Shown piece after piece: positions 3,590 through 28,785 of a stretch of DNA of 64,000 nucleotides. Origin of the DNA: Aspidapion aeneum (Eukaryota; Arthropoda; Insecta; Coleoptera; Brentidae); contig OY755038.1 in the NCBI GenBank assembly GCA_963576565.1, forward strand, positions 174,699,287-174,763,286. Reading direction: 5' to 3'. How positions within the stretch are numbered: the stretch's first letter is position 1; each line of letters begins with the position of its first letter. The notes beneath the pieces were generated by a model, which saw nothing but the letters and a program-made list of their open reading frames with translations, was not told the origin of the DNA and did no database searches. The position numbers and the translations under genes are program-made.

Positions 3590-4135
3590 AGTTGTTCTGT
3601 CTATTTCTATTTACCCTTCTGCAATCCATCTCTTCTCTGTCTCTCGCCGTGTTCATCCATCTAGTTCCCGCCTGTTTCTTCAAATCGTCCGCTCATCTCA
3701 TTTGGGGTCTTCCCCGAGGGGTGGCTCGGTATTTCCTTTTGGTGTACAGGTTAGGGGAAATACCAGGAAAATGCTTGGGAAGTACTGGGAAATATACTCG
3801 GAAATACCGGGAAGTGCTTGGGAAATACTAAGAAAAACCATTGAAATTTGAGGAAATACTGGAAAATACCGTAGGTATTATATCGTAGGTATTTCCTTTT
3901 GGTGTACAAAAATCGGCGATCGAGCCACCTCTCGGTCTTCTCCTACTTCTTTTATATTTCCAAGGTCTCCATTTTACAATACATTTGTTCCATCGATTGT
4001 CTTTCTGTCTGATATTATGACCGGCAAATTTCCATTTAAATTTTGCTACTTCTCCTCTGACATCCCTTACTTTTGTTTTGTTTCTTATCCATTCATTCCT
4101 TTTTCTATATATATTTATTACTCGATTATATTTCA
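3590..4135 (-). mobile_element. RTE-like LINE 3' fragment, interrupted
   Basis: The minus strand encodes the C-terminal tail of a LINE reverse transcriptase: a FAGH/FAGQ-like segment, then RSRGRPQ, RWADD and finally TRW followed by DREEW-like residues, in broken frames. A sister fragment without the interruption lies at 21600-21905. This copy is split by a 220-bp insertion at 3715-3934. It is far too short to be active. Confidence 0.7.
3715..3934. mobile_element. hAT-type MITE inside the LINE fragment
   Basis: The inverted ends are CGAGGGGTGGCTCG and the complement CGAGCCACCTCTCG (one mismatch). It is flanked by 8-bp direct repeats GTCTTCCC (3707-3714) and GTCTTCTC (3935-3942). The uninterrupted LINE copy near 21720 has only one such site, which proves the insertion. 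The interior has repeated GGGAAATACC-like segments and two copies of GGTATTTCCTTTTGGTGTAC. The 8-bp duplication suggests hAT mobilisation. Confidence 0.82.
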
Positions 4136-5340: not shown

Positions 5341-5506
5341 ATTATTTTTGTTAACAAACGTGAAATTTCGTACCCGTGAATTTAAAAATCAAACAAGTTT
5401 AATGGCTAATCGGGCAAAAAGGAGTTTCTTGTTTCCCTTATATTTTTCCGTGGGTAGCTTGAAAGCTTAACCTCACGGGGGTCCAAGATCTAATGGACAC
5501 CTAATA

Positions 5507-5554
5507 AGTGTTGACAGTTAACCGTTTCGTCCTTATGGGACTCCTCAGAACACT
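5507..5554 (-). ncRNA. Hammerhead ribozyme, type I (left copy 1)
   Basis: Read on the minus strand, the 48 nt run: stem I AGTGTT; core CTGAGGA (C3 U4 G5 A6 N7 G8 A9, position 7 being free); stem II GTCC, loop CATAA, GGAC; core GAA (G12 A13 A14); stem III ACGG, loop TTAA, CTGT; cleavage residue C17 (the GTC triplet); and AACACT, which closes stem I perfectly. Stem III is 4 bp with one G-U pair. Stem I is the open stem, making this type I. Flanking ACC and GGT can extend stem I beyond an internal loop, as expected for loop I-loop II contacts. Every conserved core base is present. Cutting in tandem copies would release monomer RNAs. Confidence 0.93.
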
Positions 5555-6019
5555 GCTGGTCAAGTGACAAATCTTGCGAAGTTAATCAGACGGTTTTGTC
5601 TCTAATTAAATGTAATTAGTGAGCGAACTATAGCAAGAGGCGCCATCTACCGAGATACGAGAGTAACAAAAAACCAAAAGCAGGGAAAACACTGCTATAC
5701 AATATCGATCAATGAAAAGATCGAATGCAAATAATAGAAAACAAATATAGTCCGTGATCTACGACAGCTCTTTGTCTTTTCAGGCCGGATCAACGCATTT
5801 TGCATTTTTACCCGTCATCAAGACAGTGAGCGTCAATCAACGGAATTTTTAAGCCAAATAATACTAACAAACGTGAAATTTCGTACCCGTGAATTTAAAA
5901 ATCAAACAAGTTTAATGGCTAATCGGGCAAAAAGGAGTTTTTTGTTTCCCTTATATTTTTCCGTAGGTAGCTTGAAAGCTTAACCTCACGGGGGTCCAAG
6001 ATCTAATGGAAACCTAATA

Positions 6020-6067
6020 AGTGTTGACAGTTAACCGTTTCGTCCTTATGGGACTCCTCAGAACACT
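6020..6067 (-). ncRNA. Hammerhead ribozyme, left copy 2
   Basis: Identical to the consensus of left copy 1. It lies in the 497-bp monomer; the 16-bp deletion of that monomer is well away from the ribozyme. Confidence 0.92.
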
Positions 6068-6516
6068 GCTGGTCAAGTGACAAATCTTGCGAAGTTAATC
6101 AGACGGTTTTGTCTCTAATTAAATGTAATTAGTGAGCGAACTATAGCAAGAGGCGCCATCTACCGAGATACGAGAGAAACAAAAAACACTGCTATACAAT
6201 ATCGATCAATGAAAAGATCGAATGCAAATAAAAGAAAACAACTATAGTCCGTGACCTACGACAGCTCTTTGTCTTTTCAGGCCGGATCAACGCATTTGGC
6301 ATTTTTACCCGTCATCAAGACAGTGAGCGTCAATCAACGGAATTTTTAAGCCAAATAATACTAACAAACGTGAAATTTCGTACCCGTGAATTTAAAAATC
6401 AAACAAGTTTAATGGCTAATCGAGCAAAAAGGAGTTTTTTGTTTCCCTTATATTTTTCCGTGGGTAGCTTGAAAGCTTAACCTCACGGGGGTCCAAGATC
6501 TAATGGACACCTAATA

Positions 6517-6564
6517 AGTGTTGACAGTTAACCGTTTCGTCCTTATGGGACTCCTCAGAACACT
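6517..6564 (-). ncRNA. Hammerhead ribozyme, left copy 3
   Basis: Consensus core and all three stems intact. Confidence 0.92.
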
Positions 6565-7029
6565 GCTGGTCAAGTGACAAATCTTGCGAAGTTAATCAGA
6601 CGGTTTTGTCTCTAATTAAATGTAATTAGTGAGCGAACTATAGCAAGAGGCGCCATCTACCGAGATACGGGAGAAACAAAAAACCAAAAGCAGGGAAAAC
6701 ACTGCTGTACAATATCGATCAATGAAAAGATCGAATGCAAATAAAAGAAAACAACTATAGTCCGTGACCTACGACAGCTCTTTGTCTTTTCAGGCCGGAT
6801 CAACGCATTTTGCATTTTTACCCGTCATCAAGACAGTGAGCGTCAATCAACAGAATTTTTAAGCCAAATAATACTAACAAACGTGAAATTTCGTACCCGT
6901 GAATTTAAAAATCAAACATTTTTAATGGCTAATCGAGCAAAAAGGAGTTTTTTGTTTCCCTTATATTTTTCCGTGGGTAGCTTGAAAGCTTAACCTCACG
7001 GGGGTCCAAGATCTAATGGACACCTAATA

Positions 7030-7077
7030 AGTGTTGACAGTTAACCGTTTCGTCCTTATGGGACTCCTCAGAACACT
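7030..7077 (-). ncRNA. Hammerhead ribozyme, left copy 4
   Basis: Consensus core and all three stems intact. Confidence 0.92.
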
Positions 7078-7540
7078 GCTGGTCAAGTGACAAATCTTGC
7101 GAAGTTAATCAGACGGTTTTGTCTCTAATTAAATGTAATTAGTGAGCGAACTATAGCAAGAGGTGCCATCTACCGAGATACGAGAGAAACAAAAAACCAA
7201 AAGCAGGGAAAACACTGCTATACAATATCGATCAATGAAAAGATCGAATGCAAATAAAAGAAAACAACTATAGTCCGTGACCTACGACAGCTCTTTGTCT
7301 TTTCAGGCCGGATCAACGCATTTTGTATTTTTACCCGTCATCAAGACAGTGAGCGTCAATCAACGGAATTTTTAAGCCAAATAATACTAACAAACGTGAA
7401 ATTTCGTACCCGTGAATTTAAAAATCAAACAAGTTTAATGGCTAATCGGGCAAAAAGGAGTTTTTTGTTTCCCTTATATTTTTCCGTGGGTAGCTTGAAA
7501 TTAACCTCACGGGGGTCCAAGATCTAATGGACACCTAATA

Positions 7541-7588
7541 AGTGTTGACAGTTAACCGTTTTGTCCTTATGGGACTCCTCAGAACACT
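7541..7588 (-). ncRNA. Hammerhead ribozyme, left copy 5, core mutated
   Basis: The plus-strand C to T change at 7562 turns the catalytic G12 of the GAA core into A. G12 is the general base in hammerheads, so this copy should be inactive. The stems are intact. Confidence 0.88.
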
Positions 7589-8053
7589 GCTGGTCAAGTG
7601 ACAAATCTTGCGAAGTTAATCAGACGGTTTTGTCTCTAATTAAATGTAATTAGTGAGCGAACTATAGCAAGAGGCGCCATCTACTGAGATACCAGAGAAA
7701 CAAAAAACCAAAAGCAGGGAAAACACTGCTATACAATATCGATCAATGAAAAGATCGAATGCAAATAAAAGAAAACAACTATAGTCCGTGACCTACGACA
7801 GCTCTTTGTCTTTTCAGGCCGGATCAACGCATTTTGCATTTTTACCCGTCATCAAGACAGTGAGCGTCAATCAACGGAATTTTTAAGCCAAATAATACTA
7901 ACAAACGTGAAATTTCGTACCCGTGAATTTAAAAATCAAACAAGTTTAATGGCTAATCGGGCAAAAAGGAGTTTTTTGTTTCCCTTATATTTTTCCGTGG
8001 GTAGCTTGAAAGCTTAACCTCACGGGGGTCCAAGATCTAATGGACACCTAATA

Positions 8054-8101
8054 AGTGTTGACAGTTAACCGTTTCGTCCTTATGGGACTCCTCAGAACAC
8101 T
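8054..8101 (-). ncRNA. Hammerhead ribozyme, left copy 6
   Basis: Consensus core and all three stems intact. Confidence 0.92.
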
Positions 8102-8566
8102 GCTGGTCAAGTGACAAATCTTGCGAAGTTAATCAGACGGTTTTGTCTCTAATTAAATGTAATTAGTGAGCGAACTATAGCAAGAGGCGCCATCTACCGA
8201 GATACGAGAGAAACAAAAAACCAAAAGCAGGGAAAACACTGCTATACAATATCGATCAATGAAAAGATCGAATGCAAATAAAAGAAAACAACTATAGTCC
8301 GGGACCTACGACAGCTCTTTGTCTTTTCAGGCCGGATCAACGCATTTTGCATTTTTACCCGTCATCAAGACAGTGAGCGTCAATCAACGGAATTTTTAAG
8401 CCAAATAATACTAACAAACGTGAGATTTCGTACCCGTGAATTTAAAAATCAAACAAGTTTAATGGCTAATCGGGCAAAAAGGAGTTTTTTGTTTCCCTTA
8501 TATTTTTCCGTGGGTAGCTTGAAAGCTTAACCTCACGGGGGTCCAAGATCTAATGGACACCTAATA

Positions 8567-8614
8567 AGTGTTGACAGTTAACCGTTTCGTCCTTATGGAA
8601 CTTCTCAGAACACT
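8567..8614 (-). ncRNA. Hammerhead ribozyme, left copy 7, core mutated
   Basis: Two changes from the consensus. The one at 8603 converts the invariant G8 to A (CTGAGAA instead of CTGAGGA), which should abolish cleavage. The other, at 8599, leaves a U-G pair in stem II. Confidence 0.88.
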
Positions 8615-9079
8615 GCTGGTCAAGTGACAAATCTTGCGAAGTTAATCAGACGGTTTTGTCTCTAATTAAATGTAATTAGTGAGCGAACTATAGCAAGAGG
8701 CGCCATCTACCGAGATACGAGAGAAACAAAAAACCAAAAGCAGGGAAAACACTGCTATACAATATCGATCAATGAAAAGATCGAATGCAAATAAAAGAAA
8801 ACAACTATAGTCCGTGACCTACGACAGCTCTTTGTCTTTTCAGGCCGGATCAACGCATTTTGCATTTTTATCCGTCATCAAGACAGTGAGCGTCAATCAA
8901 CGGAATTTTTAAGCCAAATAATACTAACAAACGTAAAATTTCGTACCCGTGAATTTAAAAATCAAACAAGTTTAATGGCTAATTGGGCAAAAAGGAGTTT
9001 TTTGTTTCCCTTATATTTTTCCGTGGGTAGCTTGAAAGCTTAACCTCACGGGGGTCCAAGATCTAATGGACACCTAATA

Positions 9080-9127
9080 AGTGTTGACAGTTAACCGTTT
9101 CGTCCTTATGGGACTCCTCAGAACACT
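9080..9127 (-). ncRNA. Hammerhead ribozyme, left copy 8
   Basis: Consensus core and all three stems intact. Confidence 0.92.
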
Positions 9128-9592
9128 GCTGGTCAAGTGACAAATCTTGCGAAGTTAATCAGACGGTTTTGTCTCTAATTGAATGTAATTAGTGAGCGAA
9201 CTATAGCAAGAGGCGCCATCTACCGAGATACGAGAGAAACAAAAAACCAAAAGCAGGGAAAACACTGCTATACAATATCGATCAATGAAAAGATCGAATG
9301 CAAATAAAAGAAAACAACTATAGTCCGTGACCTACGACAGCTCTTTGTCTTTTCAGGCCGGATCAACGCATTTTGCATTTTTACCCGTCATCAAGACAGT
9401 GAGCGTCAATCAACGGAATTTTTAAGCCAAATAATACTAACAAACGTAAAATTTCGTACCCGTGAATTTAAAAATCAAACAAGTTTAATGGCTAATTGGG
9501 CAAAAAGGAGTTTTTTGTTTCCCTTATATTTTTCCGTGGGTAGCTTGAAAGCTTAACCTCACGGGGGTCCAAGATCTAATGGACACCTAATA

Positions 9593-9640
9593 AGTGTTGA
9601 CAGTTAACCGTTTCGTCCTTATGGGACTCCTCAGAACACT
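9593..9640 (-). ncRNA. Hammerhead ribozyme, left copy 9 (innermost)
   Basis: Consensus sequence in the partial monomer next to the spacer. It faces outward, away from right copy 1 at 9736. Confidence 0.92.
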
Positions 9641-9674
9641 GCTGGTCAAGTGACAAATCTTGCGAAGTTAATCA

Positions 9675-9701
9675 GACGGTTTTGTCTCTCTTTCTAAAAA
9701 T
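9675..9701. other. Spacer at the centre of the inverted arrays
   Basis: 27 bp between TTGCGAAGTTAATCA (ending 9674) and its complement (from 9702). The first part, up to about 9688, still follows the left-arm monomer; the rest, TTTCTAAAAAT, matches neither arm. This is the junction where array orientation flips. Confidence 0.9.
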
Positions 9702-9735
9702 TGATTAACTTCGCAAGATTTGTCACTTGACCAGC

Positions 9736-9783
9736 AGTGTTCTGAGGAGTCCCATAAGGACGAAACGGTTAACTGTCAACACT
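9736..9783 (+). ncRNA. Hammerhead ribozyme, right copy 1
   Basis: Consensus; predicted cleavage after C9777. Confidence 0.93.
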
Positions 9784-10248
9784 TATTAGGTGTCTATTAG
9801 ATCTTGGACCCCCGTGAGGTTAAGCTTTCAAGCTACCCACGGAAAAATATAAGGGAAACAAAAAACTCCTTTTTGCCCGATTAGCCATTAAACTTGTTTG
9901 ATTTTTAAATTCACGGGTACGAAATTTCACGTTTGTTAGTATTATTTGGCTTAAAAATTCCGTTGATTGACGCTCACTGTCTTGATGACGGGTAAAAATG
10001 CAAAATGCGTTGATCCGGCCTGAAAAGACAAAGAGCTGTCGTAGGTTACGGACTATAGTTGTTTTCTTTTATTTGCATTCGATCTTTTCATTGATCGATA
10101 TTGTATAGCAGTGTTTTCCCTGCTTTTGGTTTTTTGTTTCTCTCGTATCTCGGTAGATGGCGCCTCTTGCTATAGTTCGCTCACTAATTACATTTAATTA
10201 GAGACAAAACCATCTGATTAACTTCGCAAGATTTGTCACTTGACCAGC

Positions 10249-10296
10249 AGTGTTCTGAGGAGTCCCATAAGGACGAAACGGTTAACTGTCAACACT
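10249..10296 (+). ncRNA. Hammerhead ribozyme, right copy 2
   Basis: Consensus; predicted cleavage after C10290, 513 nt from the previous site. Confidence 0.92.
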
Positions 10297-10761
10297 TATT
10301 AGGTGTCCATTAGATCTTGGACCCCCGTGAGGTTAAGTTTTCAAGCTACCCACGGAAAAATATAAGGGAAACAAAAAACTCCTTTTTGCCCGATTAGCCA
10401 TTAAACTTGTTTGATTTTTAAATTCACGGGTACGAAATTTCACGTTTGTTAGTATTATTTGGCTTAAAAATTCCGTTGATTGACGCTCACTGTCTTGATG
10501 ACGGGTAAAAATGCAAAATGCGTTGATCCGGCCTGAAAAGACAAAGAGCTGTCGTAGGTCACGGACTATAGTTGTTTTCTTTTATTTGCATTCGATCTTT
10601 TCATTGATCGATATTGTATAGCAGTGTTTTCCCTGCTTTTGGTTTTTTGTTTCTCTCGTATCTCGGTAGAGGGCGCCTCTTGCAATAGTTCGCTCACTAA
10701 TTACATTTAATTAGAGACAAAACCGTCTGATTAACTTCGCAAGATTTGTCACTTGACCAGC

Positions 10762-10809
10762 AGTGTTCTGAGGAGTCCCATAAGGACGAAACGGTTAACT
10801 GTCAACACT
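10762..10809 (+). ncRNA. Hammerhead ribozyme, right copy 3
   Basis: Consensus; predicted cleavage after C10803. Confidence 0.92.
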
Positions 10810-11276
10810 TATTAGGTGTCCATTAGATCTTGGACCCCCGTGAGGTTAAGCTTTCAAGCTACCCACGGAAAAATATAAGGGAAACAAAAAACTCCTTTTT
10901 GCCCGATTAGCCATTAAACTTGTTTGATTTTTAAATTCACGGGTACGAAATTTCACGTTTGTTAGTATTATTTGGCTTAAAAAAATTCCGTTGATTGACG
11001 CTCACTGTCTTGATGACGGTTAAAAATGCAAAATGCGTTGATGCGGCCTGAAAAGACAAAGAGCTGTCGTAGGTCACGGACTATAGTTGTTTTCTTTTAT
11101 TTGCATTCGATTTTTTCATTGATCGATATTGTATAGCAGTGTTTTCCCTGCTTTTGGTTTTTTGTTTCTCTCGTATCTCGGTAGATGGCGCCTCTTGCTA
11201 TAGTTCGCTCACTAATTACATTTAATTAGAGACAAAACCGTCTGATTAACTTCACAAGATTTGTCACTTGACCAGC

Positions 11277-11324
11277 AGTGTTCTGAGGAGTCCCATAAGG
11301 ACGAAACGGTTAACTGTCAACACT
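11277..11324 (+). ncRNA. Hammerhead ribozyme, right copy 4
   Basis: Consensus; predicted cleavage after C11318, 515 nt from the previous site. Confidence 0.92.
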
Positions 11325-11786
11325 TATTAGGTGTCCATTAGATCTTGGACCCCCGTGAGGTTAAGCTTTCAAGCTACCCACGGAAAAATATAAGGGAAAC
11401 AAAAAACTCCTTTTTGCCCGATTAGCGATTAAACTTGTTTGATTTTTAAATTTACGGGTAGGAAATTTCACGTTTGTTAGTATTATTCGGCTTAAAAATT
11501 CCGTTGATTGACGCTCACTGTCTTGACGGGTAAAAATGCAAAATGCGTTGATCCGGCCTGAAAAGACAAAGAGCTGTCGTAGGTCACGGACTATAGTTGT
11601 TTTCTTTTATTTGCATTCGATCTTTTCATTGATCGATATTGTATAGCAGTGTTTTCCCTGCTTTTGGTTTTTTGTTTCTCTCGTATCTCGGTCGATGGCG
11701 CCTCTTGCTATAGTTCGCTCACTAATTACATTTAATTAGAGACAAAACCGTCTGATTAACTTCGCAAGATTTGTCACTTGACCAGC

Positions 11787-11834
11787 AGTGTTCTGAGGAG
11801 TCCCATAAGGACGAAACGGTTAACTGTCAACACT
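11787..11834 (+). ncRNA. Hammerhead ribozyme, right copy 5
   Basis: Consensus; predicted cleavage after C11828, 510 nt from the previous site. Confidence 0.92.
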
Positions 11835-12301
11835 TATTAGGTGTCCATTAGATCTTGGACCCCCGTGAGGTTAAACTTTCAAGCTACCCACGGAAAAATA
11901 TAAGGGAAACAAAAAACTCCTTTTTGCCCGATTAGCCATTAAACTTGTTTGATTTTTAAATTCACGGGTACGAAATTACACGTTTGTTAGTATTATTTGG
12001 CTTAAAAAAATTCCGTTGATTGACGCTCACTGTCTTGATGACGGGTAAAAATGCAAAATGCGGTGATCCGGCCTGAAAAGACAAAGAGCTGTCGTAGGTC
12101 ACGGACTATAGCTGTTTTCTTTTATTTGCATTCGATCTTTTCATTGATCGATATTGTATAGCAGTGTTTTCCCTGCTTTTGGTTTTTTGTTTCTCTCGTA
12201 TCTCGGTAGATGGCGCATCTTGCTATAGTTCGCTCACTAATTACATTTAGTTAGAGACAAAACCGTCTGATTAACTTCACAAGATTTGTCACTTGACCAG
12301 C

Positions 12302-12349
12302 AGTGTTCTGAGGAGTCCCATAAGGACGAAACGGTTAACTGTCAACACT
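12302..12349 (+). ncRNA. Hammerhead ribozyme, right copy 6
   Basis: Consensus; predicted cleavage after C12343. Confidence 0.92.
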
Positions 12350-12811
12350 TATTAGGTGTCCATTAGATCTTGGACCCCCGTGAGGTTAAGCTTTCAAGCT
12401 ACCCACGGAAAAATATAAGGGAAACAAAAAACTCCTTTTTGCCCGATTAGGCATTAAACTTGTTTGAATTTTAAATTTACGGGTACGAAATTTCACGTTT
12501 GTTAGTATTATTCGGCTTAAAAATTCCGTTGATTGACGCTCACTGTCTTGACGGGTAAAAATGCAAAATGCGTTGATCCGGCCTGAAAAGACAAAGAGCT
12601 GTCGTAGGTCACAGACTATAGTTGTTTTCTTTTATTTGCATTCGATCTTTTTATTGATCGATATTGTATAGCAATGTTTTCCCTGCTTTTGGTTTTTTGT
12701 TTCTCTCGTATCTCGGTAGATGGCGCCTCTTGCTATAGTTCGCTCACTAATTGCATTTAATTAGAGACAAAACCGTCTGATTAACTTCGCAAGATTTGTA
12801 ACTTGATCAGC

Positions 12812-12859
12812 AGTGTTCTGAGGAGTCCCATAAGGACGAAACGGTTAACTGTCAACATT
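12812..12859 (+). ncRNA. Hammerhead ribozyme, right copy 7
   Basis: Core intact. The closing strand of stem I reads AACATT instead of AACACT, replacing a G-C pair with G-U, so pairing is kept. The upstream flank also differs (GATCAG for GACCAG). Confidence 0.9.
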
Positions 12860-13326
12860 TATTAGGTGTCCATTAGATCTTGGACCCCCGTGAGGTTAAG
12901 CTTTCAAGCTACCCACGGAAAAATATAAGGGAAACAAAAAACTCCTTTTTGCCCGATTAGCCATTAAACTTGTTTGATTTTTAAATTCACGAGTACGAAA
13001 TTTCACGTTTGTTAGTATTATTTGGCTTAAAAAAATTCCGTTGATTGACGCTCACTGTCTTGATGACGGGTAAAAATGCAAAATACGTTGATCCGGCCTG
13101 AAAAGACAAAGAGCTGTCGTAGGTCACGGACTATAGTTGTTTTCTTTTATTTGCATTCGATCTTTTCATTGATCGATATTGTATAGCAGTGTTTTCCCTG
13201 CTTTTGGTTTTTTGTTTCTCTCGTATCTCGGTAGATGGCGCCTCTTGCTATAGTTCGCTCACTAATTACATTTAATTAGAGACAAAACCGTCTGATTAAC
13301 TTCGCAAGATTTGTCACTTGACCAGC

Positions 13327-13374
13327 AGTGTTCTGAGGAGTCCCATAAGGACGAAACGGTTAACTGTCAACACT
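13327..13374 (+). ncRNA. Hammerhead ribozyme, right copy 8
   Basis: Consensus; predicted cleavage after C13368. It is the last copy before the BEL/Pao insertion. Confidence 0.92.
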
Positions 13375-13530
13375 TATTAGGTGTTCATTAGATCTTGGAC
13401 CCCCGTGAGGTTAAGCTTTCAAGCTACCCACGGAAAAATATAAGGGAAACAAAAAACTCCTTTTTGCCCGATTAGCCATTAAACTTGTTTGATTTTTAAA
13501 TTCACGGGTACGAAATTTCACGTTTGTTAG

Positions 13531-14177
13531 TGAACAAGTTTCCCAACTTGTTTTTATTTTTGTAAATAATTATATTCTCTAATTTTCCCTTAAAATTAGA
13601 TAAGCTATCTCTCTTAGTTTTTAAATATTTTTGGGTTACATTTACTACGCTTACAAGCGTTTTTATTTACTTTACGCTATTTCTTTCCATATTTTAAATT
13701 TAAACTTCGCGCGCTTCTTCCAGCAATGAAGGATTTGAGATAAGCGGCTAAATTCGGCCTAGTAGACGAAAACGCCGATTGTCTGCGCGAACACAGAACC
13801 ACGCGCCTCGTGCAAGGAAAGTCACCGCACCGCTATCATTTTTATATTAAAACTGTGGAAACTATTAATTTTACGCTTTAGTTTATTAGATATTAGTGTT
13901 TGGAACATTTTGAACTATAGAACAATGGAGAGTCTGGTACTTCGCGTATAATCGGGCTGGCCAGCCAAGTAGCTACAAAAGACATCTAATGGTAAGTCGT
14001 TTCTTGATAATTTTTCATTGCTGCGCTCTTTTTAGTATTTAAGTTTTTAGGCTCTTTTTTCCCTGTTGGAGCCCTGTGGAAAGATACAGTCCCTCTTAAC
14101 TCCCCCACGTTTTTCTCGAGCTATCTCGAGTGGTCCTTCGGTATATTTTATTTTCTACAGAAGGCCTAACCTCACCA
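13531..14177 (+). repeat. BEL-1 5' LTR (647 bp)
   Basis: Begins TGAACAAG and ends CTCACCA. Differs from the 3' LTR at about five positions (around 13610, 13643, 13681, 13861 and 14003). A GGTAAGT splice-donor-like site lies at about 13991. Transcription presumably starts inside this LTR, but no TATA box stands out. Confidence 0.96.
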
Positions 14178-14178
14178 T

Positions 14179-14196
14179 TTGGTCCAGGTTCGAGCC
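14179..14196 (+). other. BEL-1 putative primer-binding site
   Basis: TTGGTCCAGGTTCGAGCC directly follows the 5' LTR. TGG would pair with the CCA end of a tRNA. BEL-2 also starts its leader with TTGGTCC. The spacing of the TTCGA block does not fit a normal tRNA T arm, so the primer tRNA was not assigned. Confidence 0.45.
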
Positions 14197-14558
14197 TGAT
14201 AACAGGACCCCGGGAAAAATTAAAGTCTAAATCGCATTTTGTTAAAAATAAAATTTTTAATAAATACGCATGACCTTGATCTTTTTGCTGTGCTAGCAGT
14301 AAAAATAACAAGTAAAAAAGTACCGAACGCGCATTGTTATTTCGCGCATTTCCTACCTCTTTTTGGCTTGGCGTCGCCTGCACGTAGGAAAAGTTTCAAC
14401 ACATACGCTGTAAACAATATTAGAGAGGTAAATGAGACTTGTTTACATTTTTTATCGCCTATTTTCTTTTCTTTTTAAACGCTTTTAATTTTTAAATATT
14501 AAAAATTTCGGAAACTAATCGTTCACCTGTTTTAACGGAGTTTTTTAAAAACATTACA

Positions 14559-15690
14559 ATGAGTACGCAACTTAAGAAGTTAGAAGCACTCCGTAATGTG
14601 CAACATAATCGCATTAATACTCTTCATAACTTAGCTAATGCTTGCCTAACGGATGATACAAAAAAACCGTGTTTACAGGTTCGACTTATCGACCTTGATG
14701 AAATGAAAGAATCATTTTTTATTTATCAAAATCAAATAATAGAGGCTTATTCGGCAAGTCCGGAGAGACTGGAAGAAGAAAATGAACGCCTTACTGAGTT
14801 TGACGACAGCTTCTATGATATTAAAAGAATTCAAAAACAACTATTTGAGGTGAAAATTGAAGCTCCTCAACCTCAAAACTTAACGCAAATTTCAAATTCT
14901 TCTGATCCAGACCGCTTTATGGCGTCTTTAATGCCAAGACTGCGCATTGTCGAATTTCATGGCGACATCACTAAGTTTCCAACCTTTCTAGATATGTACG
15001 ATAGTTCTGTACACAATAATCCTAGTATTCCTACAAACGCTAAATTTAATTTGTTACTGTCCTTCCTAAAAGGACCGCCTTTAAACGTAGTTAAACACTT
15101 ACAAATAACCGACGCTAATTATATAATCGCTTACAATACGCTTCTAAAACGCTATCATAACCCCCGCTTATCGGCTCAAACTTATTGGCGCTCCGTGTAT
15201 AATTTTCCCGCTCTCAAAGACGACAATCCAGAAACGCTGCGCACGCTGCTTGATGTTTTTTCAGAAAACATTGAGGCTTTAAAAACTCTAAATTACGACA
15301 CTGATCAATGGTGTTTTCCGCTCGCCAACATTTTACTAGATAAATTGCCTGAGGTACTACTTTCGCGCTTTGAACTAGCTAATTCTAGGTCTAATGAAAT
15401 GCCCAAATATCAAGAAATTTATAATTTCCTTGAAACTCAATGTAATTCGCTTTATTCGCTACAATCTAAAAATAGATTTAAAAATAATAAACAGTTTTAT
15501 AAAAATAACGCCTCGCTTTATTATACAAAAACGCTACTTGGTACGGAAAATACTCATTCTAAAGATAGATGCGCTTTTTGTGATTCTAACACACATTCAA
15601 TATATTTATGTCACGCATTTAAAGGTAAATCTGACTACGAACGCTATGCTTACGCTAAAAATAAAAAACTATGTTTAAATTGTTTAAGCT
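14559..15690 (+). pseudogene. BEL-1 gag region
   Basis: The ATG at 14559 opens a 401-codon frame. The first 90 or so residues are a helical, charged leader; residues 125-300 are a gag-like region of BEL/Pao type (LRIVEFHGDITKFPTFLDMY, then LLSFLKGPPLNVVKHL). Near residue 345 a zinc-knuckle-like CAFC...C...LCLNCL region begins. The frame is lost there: the second knuckle (RYCPGNQRHHSLIHF) continues in another frame from about 15685, and this frame runs on only to a stop at 15764. BEL elements normally encode gag-pol as one frame, so a 1-nt indel is more likely than programmed shifting. Confidence 0.88.
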
Positions 15691-16890
15691 TCATTCAACA
15701 AATTCTTGTCAAAGTCTACGCTCATGTCGCTATTGCCCTGGTAATCAAAGACATCACTCATTAATTCATTTTGAGCGAAATTCTAATTACGCTAATTCTC
15801 AAAATCAAAATAGATCACATTTTGATGCTAACGTGAATTTCTCACACAATCTCTCTAATATTTCTCCCAACGCGTCTCCAAGTAGTGCACCACGTGGTTA
15901 CTTGGCCAGCCAGCAAAGTTTTAGATCCCCGGCTACTGGTTGTCTGCTTCAAAATTACTCTACTCAAAATAATTTCCCTCAAAGTGCCTCTCCTCAAAAT
16001 AATAAAAATTTTACTTCGACGTCTTCTAATTCACAAGTACCAATCGCAACTCCTTCGGGTTCTAACCCCACGCATTGTGGTTTTATTTCCGCGCAATCGC
16101 AAGTTTTATTGTCAACTATCCTAGTAAAAATTCAAGATGTCCGCGGTAACTTTCAAACAGTTAGAGCCGTGTTGGACAGCGGTTCGCAAAACACTTTTTG
16201 TTCTCAAAAATTAGCGCAACAATTGGGCCTTCCCAAACAACCCTTATGTTCAAATATACAGGGGGTTGGAGGCAACTCTCTTACTTCTGATCTAGGATCG
16301 ATTTTTATTAAAATTTGTAATTTTCAAAAACCAGATATTTTTGTGTCTACGCAAGCGATTATTTTGCAAAAAGTTTGTACTGATTTACCGTCAGTAAAAA
16401 TAAATACAGAAAATTGGCATTTTATAAAAAATTTACTCTTAGCAGATCCCACTTTTTACAACCCTGCGCCTATAAATTTACTAATTGGTATGGATCTATT
16501 TCCACTAATTATACAGGGTGAAAAAATCGCTAGCGATGATCCAAATCATCCCTTTGCTATGGGAACTATTTTCGGCTATATTTTGATGGGACAAATAAAT
16601 CAACCCTTAATTTCTACCCCGCCAATTAATGCTCTTTTTTGTCAAAATGAAAATGACTCGCTTTCGCAATTAATTTCAAAATTTTGGGAAACCGACTGCG
16701 TCCCCCAAAAAACTCATTTGAAACCAGAGGATGAAATGTGTGAAAATTATTTTAAACAGAGCGTGTCGCGTAATCAAGACGGCCGGTATACAGTCTCCCT
16801 TCCCTTTCGCACATTTGAAAATCCACCGCAGTTTCCCGCAATAAAACAAGTCGCGCTAAATCGTTTCTTATCTTTAGAAAAAAACTGCTT
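15686..16890 (+). pseudogene. BEL-1 protease region
   Basis: Continues gag-pol in a shifted frame (open 15671-16930). It has the second CCHC-like knuckle, a Ser/Asn/Gln-rich linker of about 100 residues, then a retropepsin-like segment with VRAVLDSGSQNTF (catalytic DSG) and the downstream GMDLFPLI and FGYILMG segments usual between PR and RT in BEL elements. The frame is lost near 16880 in a run of A (KNCFATK...), 1 nt out of phase with the RT frame. Confidence 0.88.
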
Positions 16891-17454
16891 CGCGACAAAA
16901 ACTTGTATTGTGAATATTCTAAATTTATGAATGAATATTTGGAATTGGGTCATATGGACTATGACTCAGAAAAAGAAGACGATTCAGACAGCTATTTCAT
17001 TCCACATTTCGCTGTTGTTAAAAAGGAAGCTATCACTACTAAGACAAGGGTAGTTTTTAATGCGAGTATTATTGACCCTTTTACGCATATTTCGCTTAAT
17101 CAAGTATTATTATCGGGTCCAAAACTACAAAAAGATATTATTCAAATATTATTACATTTTCGCCTTAACCCTGTGACGCTCACCTGCGATATTCAAAAAA
17201 TGTATCGTGGTATAAATATCAACCCTGATCATCAAAAATACCAAAAAATATTTTGGCGGTTTAACCCTAATGAAAAAGTTTCCGTTTTTAAACTACGAAC
17301 TGTCACTTACGGAGTGAACTGTTCACCATATCTCGCTTTACGCACCCTTCAGCACTTAGCTAAGTCCGAATATGATAACTACCCTCACGCTGCTAAAGTT
17401 ATACTTAACGATACCTATATTGATGACGTCACTACTTCATGTAAAACGGTTTAA
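16885..17454 (+). pseudogene. BEL-1 reverse transcriptase, N-terminal part
   Basis: Fingers and palm: KTRVVFNAS, LNQVLLSGPKLQ, the first catalytic Asp in LTCDIQKMYRGI, TYGVNCSPYLALRTLQ and the active-site YIDD. It ends at an in-frame TAA (17452-17454) directly after the palm; the same frame continues beyond it, so a single nonsense mutation separates it from the next part. Confidence 0.9.
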
Positions 17455-19974
17455 GAGGCGTTAAATTTGCAGCATGAGCTTACGGAATTGTTAGGAAACG
17501 CTGGCTTGAAATTACACAAATGGTCTAGCAATCGCTCAGAAGTGATCTCTCATTTAGATCCCTCCTTAGTCAACCCCGCAGTTTTATCTCTCGATTCGGA
17601 TGACGTCACTAAGGTCTTAGGCCTGTGCTGGCATCCTTCCTATGACGAGTTTCGATTTAACATATTACCTAATCAGCAAAGCTGTACTAAAAGGACGCTT
17701 CTCTCTTTTTTAGCACGCTGCTATGACCCCCATGGGTATCTTACCCCAGTAACATTCACTTTAAAATATTTGATTCAACAAATTTGGTTACTTGGTATTT
17801 CCTGGGACGCCACGCCTACTTTAGAAATAGTTCGTCAGTGGACACTCTATCAATCTGAATTTCAAGTTTTAGAAAAATTTAGTTTACCCCGCCACATTGA
17901 CATCACCAACGCCGAATCCATCGATCTCTGTGGGTTTTGTGATGCGAGTGAACGAGGGTACGCATGCGTAATATACTTACGTGTCTTACGAAACGCTAAA
18001 TATCACATATATTTTGTTCTTGCGAAACGTCGCATCGCTCCACTTAAAAAATTTGTTAGTATTCCGAGAATAGAACTTCTAGCCGCTACTCTTTTATCTG
18101 AGGTCTTAAAATACACATATGATATATTCATAAAAAGGTTCACAATAAATAATATTTACGCTTTTTCGGACGCAATGGTTGTTTTACACTGGATAAAATC
18201 CCATCCAAGTAAATGGAAAACTTTTGTCGCAAATCGTGTTAGTCTTATCCAAGATAATATTAATCCAGAATGTTGGTTATATACCCCCACCTTTCTCAAT
18301 AGTGCCGATGTAGCCAGCCGCGGCTGCTCGCCGAGTGAGCTTTTAAATCATCCCCTATGGTGGGCCGCCCCTAGTTTTTTACAAGAATCTTTCGATAAAT
18401 GGCCAACAAAAATCCCGCAAGTCAAAATAAATGACAGTTTAGAGACTGAGGAACGAAAAAATGTTGCTCTGATTTCTTGTGACCGAATAACTGAAAATTT
18501 TTTAGATTCGCTTTTAAATAATAAATCCGATTTTTACGCTATTCAACTACTTTTAGCCCGCAGTTTGCGATTCATAAATAATTGTAGACTATCCGCAGAC
18601 TTCAGAAAAAAGACAAATATAGATTATATCGATCTCTTTAACGCTTTAAAATGTTTGGCTAAGCACGAACAACAAAAATACTTTTCTGAAGTAATTCTTA
18701 ACCTTCAAAACCAGAAAAAATGCATAAAACCCATACAAAAATTGAATCCCTTTTTAGACCAGGATGGTCTTATAAGAGTTGGAGGACGCATTCAACAAGC
18801 CATGACTATTTCTTACGGACAAAAACATCCTCTTCTTTTACCCAAGGAAAGTAGACTTTCTTATAATTTTATTGAATATATGCACAAAAAATATTTGCAT
18901 GTTGGAGTGCAAACAGTCCAATATCTCATTAGTCAAATTTTTTGGATTTTATCTGCCAAACGCTTAATTAAAACGGTTTTATCCAAATGTGTTCGTTGCT
19001 TTCGCGTCAAACCGCATTCTTATGAGCAAATCATGGGACAAATTCCGTCCTACCGCTTGATTCCACAAAAGCCTTTTACTTTTAGTGGAGTAGATTTTAG
19101 TGGTGCTATACCTATCACTCTCAGTAAACACAGAGGTGTAAAAACACAAAAAGCATATATCTGCCTTTTTATTTGTCTAAATACTAAAGCTTTACATCTC
19201 GAGTTAGTGTCAGATCTAACTTCGGACGCTTTTTTAGCTGCGCCACGTCGCTTTGTTGCCCGAAGAGGTTACATAAAAACTCTTTTTTCAGATAATGGCA
19301 CAAATTTCGTTAAATCAAGCAAAGAATTGCTTGATCTTGCAAGAAATGCTTGCACGCAACAAGCTATCGCCTGGAATTTTATCCCTCCATCAGCTCCCCA
19401 CTTCGGCGGCATTTGGGAGTCAGGGATAAAATCAGTAAAAACTCACTTAATTCGTACCACTGGCTCGCAAATTCTAAGTTATGAGGAGTTGTACACGGTT
19501 CTTTGTCAAATTGAGGCGATTTTAAATTCTCGCCCCTTGACCCCGCAATCTACCGACTGTAACGATCTACAGGTTTTAACACCGGGACATTTTTTAACAC
19601 ATGGACCTTTAGTTTCTGTTCCTGATGAAGATTTTTCAAGTAAACCTGAGAATCGGCTATCGCGATGGAACTTGGTCCAACGAATACAAGCCAATTTTTG
19701 GCGTCGTTGGAGCCAAGAATTTTTACATACCCTTCAAGTACGAAATAAATGGTTGGAACCATGCGCAGAGCCAAAAATAGGTACCCTCGTTCTTATCAAA
19801 GACGAGTTATCACCGCCCCTTCAATGGCGGGTAGGTCGCATTATTGAAATTTTTAAAGGGCCTGATGGGCACGCTAGGGTGGCAAATGTTCGTACCGCGT
19901 CCGGTATCTTTAAACGACCTTTAGTCAAGCTTTGCCCCCTTCCAATTGATTCAGATTCACCTACCGAAAAATGA
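17455..19974 (+). pseudogene. BEL-1 RT thumb, RNase H and integrase
   Basis: Open for 840 codons after the TAA. It holds the RT connection (GLKLHKWSSN, VLGLCWHP, KRTLLSFLARCYDPHGYLTP); an RNase H-like region (CGFCDASERGYACVIYL, PRIELLAATLL, AFSDAMVVLHWI, NSADVASRG); the integrase HHCC finger (H...H in YMHKKYLHVG, C...C in SKCVRCF); the DDE core (SGVDFSG, LFSDNGTNF, FGGIWESGIK); and a C-terminal DUF5641-like domain (PPLQWRVGRI ... FKRPLVKLCPLP). All catalytic residues are present. Confidence 0.93.
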
Positions 19975-19995
19975 TGCTCATTTTGGTGGGCCGAA

Positions 19996-20642
19996 TGAAC
20001 AAGTTTCCCAACTTGTTTTTATTTTTGTAAATAATTATATTCTCTAATTTTCCCTTAAAATTAGAGAAGCTATCTCTCTTAGTTTTTAAATATTTTTGGG
20101 TTACATTTTCTACGCTTACAAGCGTTTTTATTTACTTTACGCTATATCTTTCCATATTTTAAATTTAAACTTCGCGCGCTTCTTCCAGCAATGAAGGATT
20201 TGAGATAAGCGGCTAAATTCGGCCTAGTAGACGAAAACGCCGATTGTCTGCGCGAACACAGAACCACGCGCCTCGTGCAAGGAAAGTCACCGCACCGCTA
20301 TCATTTTTATATTAAAACTGTGGAAGCTATTAATTTTACGCTTTAGTTTATTAGATATTAGTGTTTGGAACATTTTGAACTATAGAACAATGGAGAGTCT
20401 GGTACTTCGCGTATAATCGGGCTGGCCAGCCAAGTAGCTACAAAAGACATCTAATGGTAAGTCGTTTGTTGATAATTTTTCATTGCTGCGCTCTTTTTAG
20501 TATTTAAGTTTTTAGGCTCTTTTTTCCCTGTTGGAGCCCTGTGGAAAGATACAGTCCCTCTTAACTCCCCCACGTTTTTCTCGAGCTATCTCGAGTGGTC
20601 CTTCGGTATATTTTATTTTCTACAGAAGGCCTAACCTCACCA
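19996..20642 (+). repeat. BEL-1 3' LTR (647 bp)
   Basis: Same length and ends as the 5' LTR. A short purine-rich tract, GGTGGGCCGAA (19986-19995 region), precedes it and may be the polypurine tract. Confidence 0.96.
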
Positions 20643-21124
20643 GTTAGTATTATTTGGCTTAAAAATTCCGTTGATTGACGCTCACTGTCTTGATGACGGG
20701 TAAAAATGCAAAATGCGTTGATCCGGCCTGAAAAGACAAAGAGCTCTCGTAGGTCACGGACTATAGTTGTTTTCTTTTATTTGCATTCGATCTTTTCATT
20801 GATCGATATTGTATAGCAGTGTTTTCCCTGCTTTTGGTTTTTTGTTTCTCTCGTATCTCGGTAGATGGCGCCTCTTGCTATAGTTCGCTCACTAATTACA
20901 TTTAATTAGAGACAAAACCGTCTGATTAACTTCGCAAGATTTGTCACTTGACCAGCAGTGTTCTGAGGAGTCCCATAAGTACGAAACGGTTAACTGTCAA
21001 CACTTATTAGGTGTCCATTAGATCTTGGACCCCCGTGAGGTTAAGCTTTCAAGCTACCCACGGAAAAATATAAGGGAAACAAAAAACTCCTTTTTGCCCG
21101 ATTAGCCATTAAACTTGTTTGATT
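20643..21124 (+). repeat. Ribozyme satellite, right array, distal part
   Basis: Continuation of the monomer interrupted by BEL-1, ending about 30 bp short of a full unit at TTGTTTGATT. Immediately after comes the 12-bp repeat ATTATTTTTGTT (21122-21133) also found at 5341-5352. Without BEL-1 the right arm is about 4306 bp, against 4323 bp for the left. Confidence 0.94.
20957..21004 (+). ncRNA. Hammerhead ribozyme, right copy 9, stem II mismatch
   Basis: Core intact, but GGAC of stem II reads GTAC, leaving a C-U mismatch in a 4-bp stem. Activity is probably reduced. Cleavage would fall after C20998. Confidence 0.88.
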
Positions 21125-21133
21125 ATTTTTGTT

Positions 21134-21599: not shown

Positions 21600-21905
21600 A
21601 TCTATCTATTTAGCCTTCTTCGATTCATAGATTCATATCTTCCACTCTTCTCTGTCTGTCGCTGTGTTCACCCATCTAGTCCCCATGTTTCTTCGAATCG
21701 TCCGCCCACCTTATTTGGGGTCTTCCCCTACTTCTTTTATTTTCCCAAGGTCTCCAGTTTACATTTGTTCAATCGATCTTCTTTCTGTCTGATATTTTGA
21801 CCGGCAAATATCAAGTGTAATTTTGCCACCTCTCCTCTGACATCGCTTGCTTTTGTATTATTTCTTATCCATTCATTCATTTTTCTATCTGTTAGCTTTA
21901 CATGA
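21600..21905 (-). mobile_element. RTE-like LINE 3' fragment, uninterrupted
   Basis: Sister of the fragment at 3590-4135. The minus strand reads through EWIRNNTKASDVRGEVA, FAGQNIRQK, RSRGRPQIRWADDSKK and TRWVNTATDREEWK-like segments with one frameshift. Its intact GGTCTTCCCCTAC junction documents the empty site for the MITE at 3715. Confidence 0.7.

Positions 21906-22048: not shown

Positions 22049-22106
<58 letters not shown>
22049..22106. repeat. (TA)n microsatellite
   Basis: About 29 TA units. Confidence 0.97.
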
Positions 22107-23619: not shown

Positions 23620-24123
23620 TGAATAAATAGCGGAAAATATGAAAAATCAAAACTTCGATATGAACTATAAATCCGAATTCGCTTTCCAAAAAAAAAATAA
23701 TAAATAGCGCACAGAAAAGAAGAAAAGTCCTACCTTATGTACGTGGCCACGTTAATCCTCTTTTCAGCTTATTTGAAGGCTACTTCGTTCACCCTCAACA
23801 CCTCCAGTTCGTCACTTAAAGTTAATTAACAGTTTAATTAAAAATCACTAATGCAATATAAAATAAAAGCTATTTTGTATTTTGGCATACACTTGCGCGA
23901 GATTCAATTTTCATCTGTCTTTTAATAACACTGGTGTTCGTTCACGGCGCGTTTATCAGTTTTATTAATCGCGCAAAAAACGGACCTTTTTCAAACCTGT
24001 ACGCTTTAAATAAAATTAATATCACCGAAATATTTGAAATATTGGAGCAAAATTTGTCATCACGTACTATTCTAAATTATTAAATAAAAAAAACTAAATT
24101 ATTTAAATACTGATTCCCAAACA
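23620..24123 (-). repeat. BEL-2 3' LTR
   Basis: 504 bp. On the minus strand it starts TGTTTGGG and ends TTATTCA. Differs from the other LTR by a base near 23922 (TTTTAA against TTTAAA) and by A-run length. Confidence 0.96.
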
Positions 24124-24136
24124 TTCTCCCCCTCAA
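24124..24136 (-). other. BEL-2 polypurine tract
   Basis: On the minus strand a purine run GAGGGGGAGAA lies directly against the 3' LTR, the expected site for plus-strand DNA priming. Confidence 0.8.
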
Positions 24137-24272
24137 AAACAAGTGTTTTTAAACTTAGTCTTACAGAAAACTAAGAAGAGAGAACGAAAAGGAGAGAAAA
24201 AAATAAATAAATAAAATTCTAAAATAACAGCACAAACATGTTGAGATTAAACAACACCAAAAAAAAAAACAA

Positions 24273-25229
24273 TTATTTTACCGGCAAAGGGCAAACCTTA
24301 ACAACAGGACGTTGAAGAATCCCATTGTTAGTTTTAATCGAGACCACTCGAGTTACACCATCCTTGCCGGGATGTAACTCAACAATGCGTCCTAACGACC
24401 ATTGAAGAGGAGGGCGTTGCTCATCTCGGATAAGTGCTAAATCTCCTACAGATATAGGTTTCGAAGGATTTGTCCACTTCTGTCTTTCTTGTAAAGTGGT
24501 GACATATTCGAGAGACCAACGTTTCCAGAATTCACTTTGAAGTCTCTGAATATACTGCCACCGGCTAAGACGATTTAAAGACAGATGATCCAAAGGTGGA
24601 TCGGGAATCGAACTATTTAAAGGTTCTAAAACTAGAAAATGACCAGGAGTCAAGGGTTGAAGGTCATTAGGATCTGAACTGATACTGCAAATGGGTCGTG
24701 AGTTTAGAACTGCCTCAATTTGCGTAAGAAGTGTTGTGAACTCCTCAAATGTTAGGTTCTGAGAGCCAACAGTACGATATAAATGACTTTTAAAAGATTT
24801 GACTCCCGCCTCAGCAAGGCCGTTAAAATGAGGAGACCCAGGTGCATTAAAAAACCAATTAATAGATAGGACTTCGGCGCAAGCCTTGGCCAAGGTCACA
24901 AGCTCATTGTAGGCACCTTTAAAGTTACTCCCCTGGTCTGAGGTAATCGAAGTACATGTACCGCGGCGAGCGACAAAACGTCTGAACGCGGCTAAGAACG
25001 ATTCTGAAGTTAAGTCAGAGGTGGCTTCAAGATGGATCGCTCTAGTGGCGGTGCACACAAAAATGCATGCATAACCTTTAAATATTTTGGCACCTCTATG
25101 CCGATGCATTAACATAGAAAAGGGACCTGCAAAGTCTATGCATACGGAAGAAAATGCCCTCAATTGTGACACTCTTACTGATGGCAAGTCAGCCATATAT
25201 GGGTTAACAAACTTAGGTTTGCATCTAAA
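24273..25229 (-). pseudogene. BEL-2 integrase
   Basis: In frame with the RT part upstream but separated by a TGA (25230-25232). That stop replaces the last zinc-ligand Cys of the HHCC finger (SKCIR, stop, FRCKP), where BEL-1 has SKCVRCF. Downstream, the catalytic residues are intact: CIDFAGPF, SITSDQGSNF and HFNGLAEAGVKSFKSH. It ends with a DUF5641-like tail (PPLQWSLGRIVELHPGKDG ... RPVVKVCPLPVK). Confidence 0.93.
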
Positions 25230-27345: not shown

Positions 27346-28785
27346 GTATCTCAAATGTAGGATTAGAGTGCCGAAATGGCAACGGTACGGAAAATCGACC
27401 TGAAGAATCTCTACATGTATATTTTTTAAAAATTTCCTCACATTTTTTGTCTTCTGGGGACAGGGACGGGGGCTTGTCAATTTGCTCTACCTCCCAGAAC
27501 CTTTGTAACAATATATCAATGTTAGTTTCTAAGGCTGCATGACAACTGACTAGCGGTAAAGTCGTGGGGCATGCAGTGCTTACCCTGCCTTGAAGAATGT
27601 AACCAAAAATGGTTTCCAAAGCTATCGGTTGGTCAGCGTTACCAGCTATGCGACCTGATTTTAAAAACAATGGAAACAATTCAGCACCAATAAGCATGTC
27701 AACAGGACCGGGCCTATGAAAATTGGAGTCAGCGAGTTTAAGATTTTTAACATGCGTTAAATTATTAGGATTTATCGAAATTTTGGGCTGGTCAGAACAT
27801 ACCTGGGGAATAATGATTGCCTCAAAAGAAAATGTGGGATTATTCTGATCACATGGCTTAATAAAACACTGAGTTATGCCGTTGGTAGCTGCAGTAGACA
27901 TACCATTAAGTCCTTCAACGGGAATAGAACATGACTTTCGACATAAACCCAGGCGCCGAACACATCGTTCGGATATAAAACTAGCCATGGATGCAGTATC
28001 TAGCAAGGCTCTTATCTTCTGAAAATGACCTCTACCATCTTTAATATCCACTTCACATGTTGACAGTAAAATGGTTGATTGATGAAAAGATAAGGTGTTA
28101 GTAAGGCATTGAGGGTTTTGTATAATTTGGTTAGAGGCAGATGAAGTCTGAGAAATGTCTGCCACAGGCGAAGAAGTAAAACTACTTTGTTGCACGTTAG
28201 AAGCGGCTAGGGCTCTATTAAAATGCAAAGCAGTGTGGTGGGGGAACTTGCAAACACGACACTTGTGTGAAGAAGAACAATTTTTTAAGGAGTGGGGGGA
28301 AATTAAGCAGTTGACGCAAAGATTATGTTGCTTGGCTAAAGAAAAACGGTCCTGGGGACTTTTGGATAAAAATGTCTTACATTTGAAGACCGCGTGTGGT
28401 TGAGAACATAAAACACACTTTATGTTGCTAGAAGTGCTTGATAGTTCAGTAGTATTTGTAATGAAACTAGAAGTTACCCTTTTATTACCCTGTAAAAAAT
28501 TAGGTTTAGATTTTGGCTTCTCATGAGAGTTATCAAACCCAGAGGTATACTGTATAGATTCTAGGGCTATGCACTGACGTTCTAAAAAGGTGGTCAACTG
28601 CCGATATGTAGGTAACTCCTGATTTAAACTGTTATCGAGTTCAAAATCCGTTCTTGTTTTTGAGTCAAGTTTATTTAATAGCATATTAAATAATAAAAAG
28701 TCCCAATGGTCGACAGGTAACTGAAGAACCCTTAAAGCAGCGATATTTTCAAAAAATATATTTAAAAGTTGTCTAGGTCTTTTGA
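27311..28785 (-). pseudogene. BEL-2 gag C-terminal part and protease
   Basis: Begins in a frame 1 nt off the gag N-terminal part (LNIFFENIAALRVLQLP upstream of its first ATG). It has zinc knuckles (CVLCSQPHAVFKC, LCVNCL, CRVCKFPHHTALHF) and a protease segment IRALLDTASMASF, where the usual DSG/DTG triad reads DTA. Then GAELFPLFLKSG and FGYILQGRV. The DTA triad may be a variant or a lesion. Confidence 0.88.

Follow-up and report, generated by a model that had tools for sequence, protein, structure and literature searches.

Twin head-to-head arrays of a hammerhead-bearing repeat in Aspidapion aeneum: probable insertion of an animal retrozyme by Penelope-type machinery

What is the block of 513-bp repeats that occupies positions 5353–21121 of a 64,000-nt stretch of the genome of the beetle Aspidapion aeneum (GenBank assembly GCA_963576565.1, contig OY755038.1), and how did it come to be there? 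We refer to the whole of this stretch as the window. A reading made from the letters of the window and without database searches (the sequence-only reading) described the block as satellite DNA in which every monomer encodes a type I hammerhead ribozyme. The block looks like one large insertion, not an ordinary satellite, and consists of two arrays of 513-bp monomers that lie head to head; the inversion of the arrays, the BEL/Pao retrotransposon inserted at 13531–20642 and the 12-bp direct repeat that flanks the block were missed in that reading. From its anatomy and that of related copies, we conclude that the block is probably an insertion of a non-autonomous animal retrozyme, copied from both strands of the target by the machinery of a Penelope-like element (PLE).

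Both arrays run outward from a 12-bp filler at the head-to-head junction (9690–9701). The left arm (5353–9689; 4337 bases) has its sense on the minus strand; the right arm (4304 bases) has its sense on the plus strand and is found in two parts (9702–13530 and 20648–21121). The inner end of the left arm corresponds to monomer position 423 and that of the right arm to position 438. At the outer borders, a 12-bp target-site duplication (TSD), ATTATTTTTGTT, is present as an exact match at 5341–5352 and 21122–21133; at random, matches of at least 12 bp occur in 1 of 20,000 point pairs drawn from the local flanks and in 12 of 20,000 drawn from the whole window. After correction for the TSD, the left outer end falls at monomer position 160 and the right outer end at position 123, that is, at the sites B and A that are defined below. 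The monomer is 39.2% G+C, and the longest Met-initiated open reading frame (ORF) in its tandem consensus is 36 aa.

The monomers in the window array differ from their own consensus by 0.82% on average. The 16 monomers contain 61 substitution variants, 55 of them private and six common to several monomers, always inside one arm; no substitution is common to both arms. The first part of the right arm has a two-monomer higher-order pattern (R3–R7), and this period-two pattern, together with the pairs L1/L2 and L6/L7, suggests local duplication inside the arms after insertion. Because the common variants point to later duplications in the arms, we give little weight to the nearly equal lengths of the two arms. 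The interruption of the right arm is a BEL/Pao long terminal repeat (LTR) retrotransposon (13531–20642, plus strand) with its own TSD, GTTAG (13526–13530 and 20643–20647); it is a later insert and not a part of the retrozyme. Its two LTRs show 7 differences in 653 aligned positions; the divergence of the monomers exceeds half of this difference (0.54%), which fits an array that is older than the BEL/Pao element.

The motif is not confined to the window: the source assembly (1.286 Gb) contains 14,553 copies at up to three mismatches, and the reversed pattern is found 0 times. The 100 listed places, all exact matches, form 62 clusters over 11.5 Mb within the first 12 Mb of one contig; close neighbors among them have the orientations ++ (16), −− (10), −+ (12), and +− (0). 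We analyzed 60 loci (L009–L068) that represent 61 of the 62 clusters (the last cluster and L001–L008 were left out), and we dropped pieces located 30 bases or less from the end of a locus (e.g., L013:1-92 and L025:18-59). The loci contain 66 pieces, of which 34 are head to head, 32 are single-armed and none are tail to tail. Because the listed places are all exact matches, the sample is enriched in young copies and the ribozyme is included at every locus; this sampling also biases the apparent conservation of the ribozyme from locus to locus. Monomer positions 111, 112, 150, 209, and 227–231 carry variants in about half to nearly all of the dispersed loci, and these variants point to subfamilies; at position 112, the window consensus is unlike 53 of 56 loci.

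The outer ends of the dispersed pieces are concentrated at two sites. We defined site A as monomer positions 120–134 and site B as positions 154–172, together 6.6% of the monomer; 89 of the 100 outer 3′ ends in the 60 loci are located at A or B. In the head-to-head pieces, one A end is paired with one B end in 28 of 34; neither A+A nor B+B is found, and six pieces have an end elsewhere. If 28 A and 28 B ends were paired randomly, the chance that all pairs would be mixed is 3.5e-8. The pattern was first noticed in 20 loci, and it holds in the 40 loci analyzed afterwards, where A or B accounts for 54 of 62 ends and A+B for 15 of 19 head-to-head pieces. When corrected for the TSD, the A ends peak at position 123 (11 of 32) and the B ends at position 158 (10 of 30), with a second B peak at position 160 (8), the position used in the window. 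The main peaks, 123 and 158, are 35 nt apart, and each is the last G of a GTTTG box. A representative copy of this candidate initiation module (monomer 119–158), delimited by the end peaks and the predicted fold, is located at 10409–10448 on the plus strand, with box A at 10409–10413, box B at 10444–10448 and predicted hairpins between them. The module is no better conserved among loci than the rest of the monomer (4.6% divergence vs 2.0% overall); the values for the GTTTG boxes are 1.1% and 1.9%.

The pieces are also flanked by TSDs. A TSD score of at least 10 was obtained for 34 of 68 pieces (the 68 include the window block as two poorly parsed halves), compared with 15 of 1332 shuffled-flank controls; at a score of at least 9, TSDs are found for 27 of the 34 head-to-head pieces and nine of the 32 single-armed pieces, and 23 of these 36 are 11–13 bp long. 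The A+T content is 86% in 34 TSDs and 66% in the flanks. For 37 sites (the window and 36 of the pieces), we then reconstructed the empty target by joining its flanks and compared it with the fetched sequences; among the matches listed, related sequence passes uninterrupted through the joined site for L009, L012 (with small gaps near the joint), L016, L030, L034, L044 and, weakly, L031. These empty sites are paralogous, not allelic. Together, the TSDs and the related empty sites show a staggered cut of the target with the nicks approximately 12 bp apart. Given the TSDs, the related empty sites, the preferred ends and the thousands of dispersed copies, the label ‘satellite DNA’ is too narrow for what is a dispersed mobile element.

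The hammerhead itself was described accurately in the sequence-only reading in most respects. Using a 36-nt core pattern with up to three mismatches, we found the 18 motifs that it had claimed (100 shuffles averaged 0.00), nine on the minus strand (5513–9634) and nine on the plus strand (9742–20998), one for each 513-bp monomer junction. The order of the motif, as read from the sequence, is CTGAGGA, stem II GTCC/GGAC (loop CATAA), GAA, stem III ACGG/CTGT (loop TTAA), GTC and a 6-bp stem I. The count of 16 copies that keep every core base (CUGANGA, GAA and the UH cleavage site, with three stems of which stem I is open) was also reproduced. A representative core is located at 10255–10290 on the plus strand; the other plus-strand cores are at 9742–9777, 10768–10803, 11283–11318, 11793–11828, 12308–12343, 12818–12853, 13333–13368, and 20963–20998 (core intact, one stem II pair broken). 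The minus-strand cores are at 5513–5548, 6026–6061, 6523–6558, 7036–7071, 7547–7582 (broken, G12 to A), 8060–8095, 8573–8608 (broken, G8 to A), 9086–9121, and 9599–9634. The claim of a perfect 6-bp stem I in all 18 copies was slightly too strong; it is correct for 17 copies, and the copy at 12818–12853 has a single G-U pair.

By sequence, then, the repeat carries a type I hammerhead motif for which self-cleavage is predicted, and the palindrome GTTAAC in the stem III sequence makes a dimeric form of the ribozyme possible. The predicted fold of the 513-nt circle is more stable than those of 60 shuffles (−134 vs a mean of −113; z −3.3). Within the window array the ribozyme is not visibly protected (0.65% divergence vs 0.83%). 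Matches of the palindromes to microRNA families, all under their gathering scores, were rejected as inverted-repeat artefacts.

To which known systems is this element related? Animal non-LTR retrozymes are described as repeats whose units, of 170–400 nt, each carry a type I hammerhead (Cervera & de la Pena 2020; PMC7229834); their authors call PLEs a strong candidate for mobilization, and later retrozyme reviews, in the parts available, still give PLEs or long interspersed nuclear elements (LINEs) as candidates. The A. aeneum repeat has most of the features given in that paper: tandem units, few to many, each with a type I hammerhead; low G+C content; no LTR; TSDs of more than 4 bp; dispersed copies; and no coding capacity. 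Its unit is longer, 513 bp compared with 170–400 nt, a descriptive range that we do not take as a definition. The paired A/B ends and the head-to-head arms resolved here go beyond the available text of that paper, and the circular RNA is one that we infer. The pDo500 satellite of Dolichopoda cave crickets (PMC2837043), likened to our repeat by description only, is also an insect repeat of approximately 500 bp with a type I hammerhead of approximately 49 nt; its insertion anatomy is not described in the accessible part of that report. The Schistosoma W-elements (PMC8490949) are similarly satellite-like, with type I hammerheads in some, suspected mobility and one possible TSD; compared with what is available of that report, the paired internal ends and twin arrays are found only in the retrozyme described here.

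The anatomy of the insertions resembles that of PLEs. Rotifer PLEs insert head to head, with an optional 31-bp tail on one inverted end and TSDs of 8–10 bp (PMC3846280). The purified Anolis PLE PAc cleaves AT-rich DNA on both strands and extends each of them, with its cDNA starting at two adjacent internal sites that do not differ between the strands in vitro and that explain a tail of 30–40 bp; its hammerhead is located upstream of the start sites and is not needed for insertion in vitro (PMC11167929). The retrozyme shares with PLEs the head-to-head inserts, a tail of approximately 30–40 bp on one end, the TSD and the AT-rich targets (PMC11167929, PMC3846280), and with PAc two adjacent internal starts downstream of the hammerhead and the extension of both strands (PMC11167929). 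Unlike PLEs, it has no gene for a reverse transcriptase (RT) or an endonuclease, and monomer repeats replace the unit of pseudo-LTR (pLTR) and ORF; its TSDs are mostly 11–13 bp compared with 8–10 bp in the rotifer elements (PMC3846280). The rule of one A and one B is not stated in the available parts of the PAc report (PMC11167929), the main text of which does not contain the terms ‘retrozyme’ and ‘circular’. A literature search that covered neither preprints nor most subscription papers identified no paper with paired A/B ends in a retrozyme. Because it has no long ORF, the retrozyme is not a PLE; on these insertion marks, it would work like a PLE passenger. The sequence-only reading had suggested a separate retrozyme-like or satellite lineage; ‘retrozyme-like’ stands. 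Because the insertion anatomy is Penelope-like, the lack of a PLE RT in the window does not mean that the lineage is separate from Penelope. That lack, which the sequence-only reading had reported, is not contradicted: no GIY-YIG domain is present in the 10 scanned of the 24 listed window ORFs, and four of these 10 carry RVT_1.

PLEs are present in the same genome. We identified GIY-YIG domains in 91 of 150 scored sequences from 633 candidates, and relatives of a PLE endonuclease fragment (L070) are found beside the retrozyme loci L015 and L031. A PLE copy located a few kb from the L015 retrozyme (L015:1-600 with L071) has the endonuclease followed by a stretch of the form CTGAAGATGCC...GGCGAAACGTC; the ATG of this stretch overlaps stem II, the same layout as that published for PAc. 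From a likeness judged by eye, we read this stretch as a putative minimal PLE hammerhead like that of PAc; a scan of L015, which may contain only a part of the stretch, did not report this hammerhead. Several GIY-YIG matches form close −,+ pairs (e.g., C1:117918217− and C1:117919014+; C1:85451996− and C1:85453325+), as if the PLEs of this genome were also inserted head to head; one +,− pair is found too (C1:101463746+ and C1:101464957−).

The mechanism that we propose would begin with transcription of the arrays, cleavage of the RNA by the hammerhead into 513-nt units and ligation of these into circles. A PLE-type RT with a GIY-YIG endonuclease, probably a dimer, would then bind a structured RNA module located 119–158 nt past the cleavage site and cut AT-rich DNA on both strands approximately 12 bp apart; the stagger is taken from the TSDs and empty sites, and the enzyme is a putative one. 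Each target strand would prime a cDNA at an internal site of the RNA, box A for one strand and box B for the other, as recorded in the footprints. Each cDNA would proceed upstream past the former cleavage junction, in many cases making more than one lap, a course seen in the inserts, with a presumably circular template; joining of the two cDNA ends, for which the joints are seen, would give the divergent head-to-head arrays. The window copy would be the extreme case seen, with approximately 8.4 units per arm, modified by later local duplications and the BEL/Pao insertion. The binding, cutting and priming steps agree with the in vitro behavior described for PAc (PMC11167929). For the complete scheme, that is, one RNA and two cDNAs made together, A on one strand and B on the other, each running perhaps several laps around a circle made by the ribozyme, we lean only slightly toward acceptance.

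The two arms of a locus provide information about their template. They share 51 of 82 variants (62%; 26 of 29 A+B loci with usable overlap). When arms of different loci were paired instead, 300 times, the common variants averaged 34% and never exceeded 52%; the divergence between arms, 2.0% within a locus, averaged 3.1% in these re-pairings and did not fall below 2.4%. This excess of variants common within a locus indicates that both arms were copied from the same or closely related RNA. The data fit a single template, either a circle or a linear RNA, copied into both cDNAs. The cDNAs cross the cleavage junction in all 30 A+B pieces, the window included (the sampling demands one crossing), and in 18 of the 30 one arm is longer than a lap. 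The lengths of the A and B arms are uncorrelated (Spearman −0.20, p 0.30). We judge a circular template fairly likely. The same PLE machinery could instead have used a long linear multimeric transcript, in which case the laps would be tandem units already present in the RNA, an explanation that we regard as possible, on balance unlikely. In its favor, the inner ends are located within 30 nt of each other in 11 of the 30 A+B pieces compared with 3.6 expected, as if the end of one RNA had been run off; the arms in the window are nearly equal, a point weakened by the later duplications; and PAc inserts unprocessed RNA with its hammerhead dispensable in vitro (PMC11167929), so a circle may not be needed. 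Against a linear template, many variants in multi-lap arms recur in each lap (12 of 18 in the plus arm of L037 and 10 of 22 in L060), although fewer do so in L055 (10 of 62) and L022 (1 of 17), and the lack of substitutions common to both window arms fits a uniform template; neither observation is decisive. A collision between enzymes, with a trailing enzyme always 10–30 nt behind a leader, was rejected as an explanation for the inner ends; the sign of the inner-end difference is mixed.

Other types of machinery could give inverted arms. Twin priming by L1 yields inversions and TSDs, and in LINE twin priming one 3′ end is fixed while the second is free. Mobilization of the retrozyme by a LINE-type element using ordinary twin priming would be compatible with the inverted arms, the TSDs of mostly 11–13 bp and the small gaps or overlaps at the joints, and RVT_1 elements are present in the window and the genome; we nevertheless find it improbable, as the outer ends are both confined to a pair of internal sites, separated by 35 nt and used strictly one of each, and the use of two neighboring internal starts is described as a feature of PLEs alone (PMC11167929). 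An ordinary satellite, amplified by unequal crossing-over or extrachromosomal circles with the hammerhead as a passenger, would account for the period-two pattern (R3–R7) and the variants common to neighbors inside the window block, and this explanation holds for what happened later inside the window array; where the dispersed copies are concerned, it is contradicted by the 62 clusters over 11.5 Mb with TSDs, preferred ends and related empty sites, so that as an account of the element we give it very little credence. We give slightly less still to a foldback-type DNA transposon with terminal inverted repeats made of monomers: it would explain the head-to-head arms and a TSD of fixed length, but a transposase would need like ends, and the outer ends lie 35 nt apart in the monomer, the arms are unlike in length and content and the inner ends vary freely. 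We also rejected self-priming of a single cDNA, from which identical outer ends are expected; none of the 28 pieces whose ends both fall at A or B shows this.

Several results weigh against insertion of a retrozyme by PLE-type machinery, or against the ribozyme as a part of it. The 11 of 100 outer ends that fall outside A and B do not fit the two-box rule, 32 of the 66 pieces are single-armed and only nine of these have a TSD, and the pair of GTTTG boxes is absent from the 3′ regions of the three PLE copies examined. The scope is limited to exact-match copies in the first 12 Mb of one contig, and the circle may be unnecessary for the reason given above. The minimum-energy fold of the 86-nt ribozyme stretch does not contain the hammerhead (−18.2 kcal/mol vs −14.4 kcal/mol with its stems enforced). 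At the Rfam gathering score, none of the 18 copies is matched: the cut-off for the hammerhead I model (RF00163) is 34 bits and our best score is 24.7 bits, and the sequence-only reading had named a score below the family threshold as grounds for rejecting the ribozyme, grounds that formally apply here. When E-values up to 10 were allowed, RF00163 was matched at full length in 15 of the 18 copies, 14 of which score 24.7 bits and the other 22.7 bits, and the best E-value was 0.035 counted over all 4227 families; one of the remaining three was reported as RF00008 (20.9 bits) and two were without any Rfam report. The RF00163 match, although under the gathering score, is far from chance, and the cut-off is a limit on score, not a structural feature.

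The window contains additional repeats and one additional gene candidate. A second BEL/Pao-like element (23620–30600, minus strand; ORFs at 24273–29448) is located between 504-bp repeats (23620–24123 and 30098–30600) that are 99.6% identical, indicating a very young insertion. One dispersed repeat family flanks the block on both sides in the same orientation (3625–4108 and 21641–21888; 85–87% identity), and a perfect (TA)29 microsatellite is present near the right border of the block (22049–22106). An A+T-rich tandem array at 36694–38040, with 142-bp units paired as 283-bp units (95% matches), is unrelated to the hammerhead monomer. The ORF at 58925–60979 is zf-AD-like (20 bits, under the cut-off of 28); two proteins were found as matches, and the better one, from the weevil Cylas formicarius, has 29% identity over 96%. 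By itself, this match would suggest an insect, perhaps a beetle, as the probable host.

The spread of hammerhead satellites and animal retrozymes has so far been a matter of conjecture, with PLEs or LINEs proposed as the mobilizing elements in the available parts of the retrozyme papers. Thousands of insertions in the A. aeneum genome record the reaction; their footprints point to PLE-type machinery and locate two candidate initiation boxes in the RNA, with a rule, one arm per box, that is not stated for PLEs in the available parts of PMC11167929. If the proposed mechanism is correct, animal hammerhead satellites would be products of PLEs, long twin arrays could arise from a single insertion and the ‘tail’ of PLEs would reflect a reaction in which a dimeric enzyme uses two sites and two strands. 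A defined RNA module of approximately 40 nt now makes the question of how animal retrozymes are mobilized accessible to experiment.

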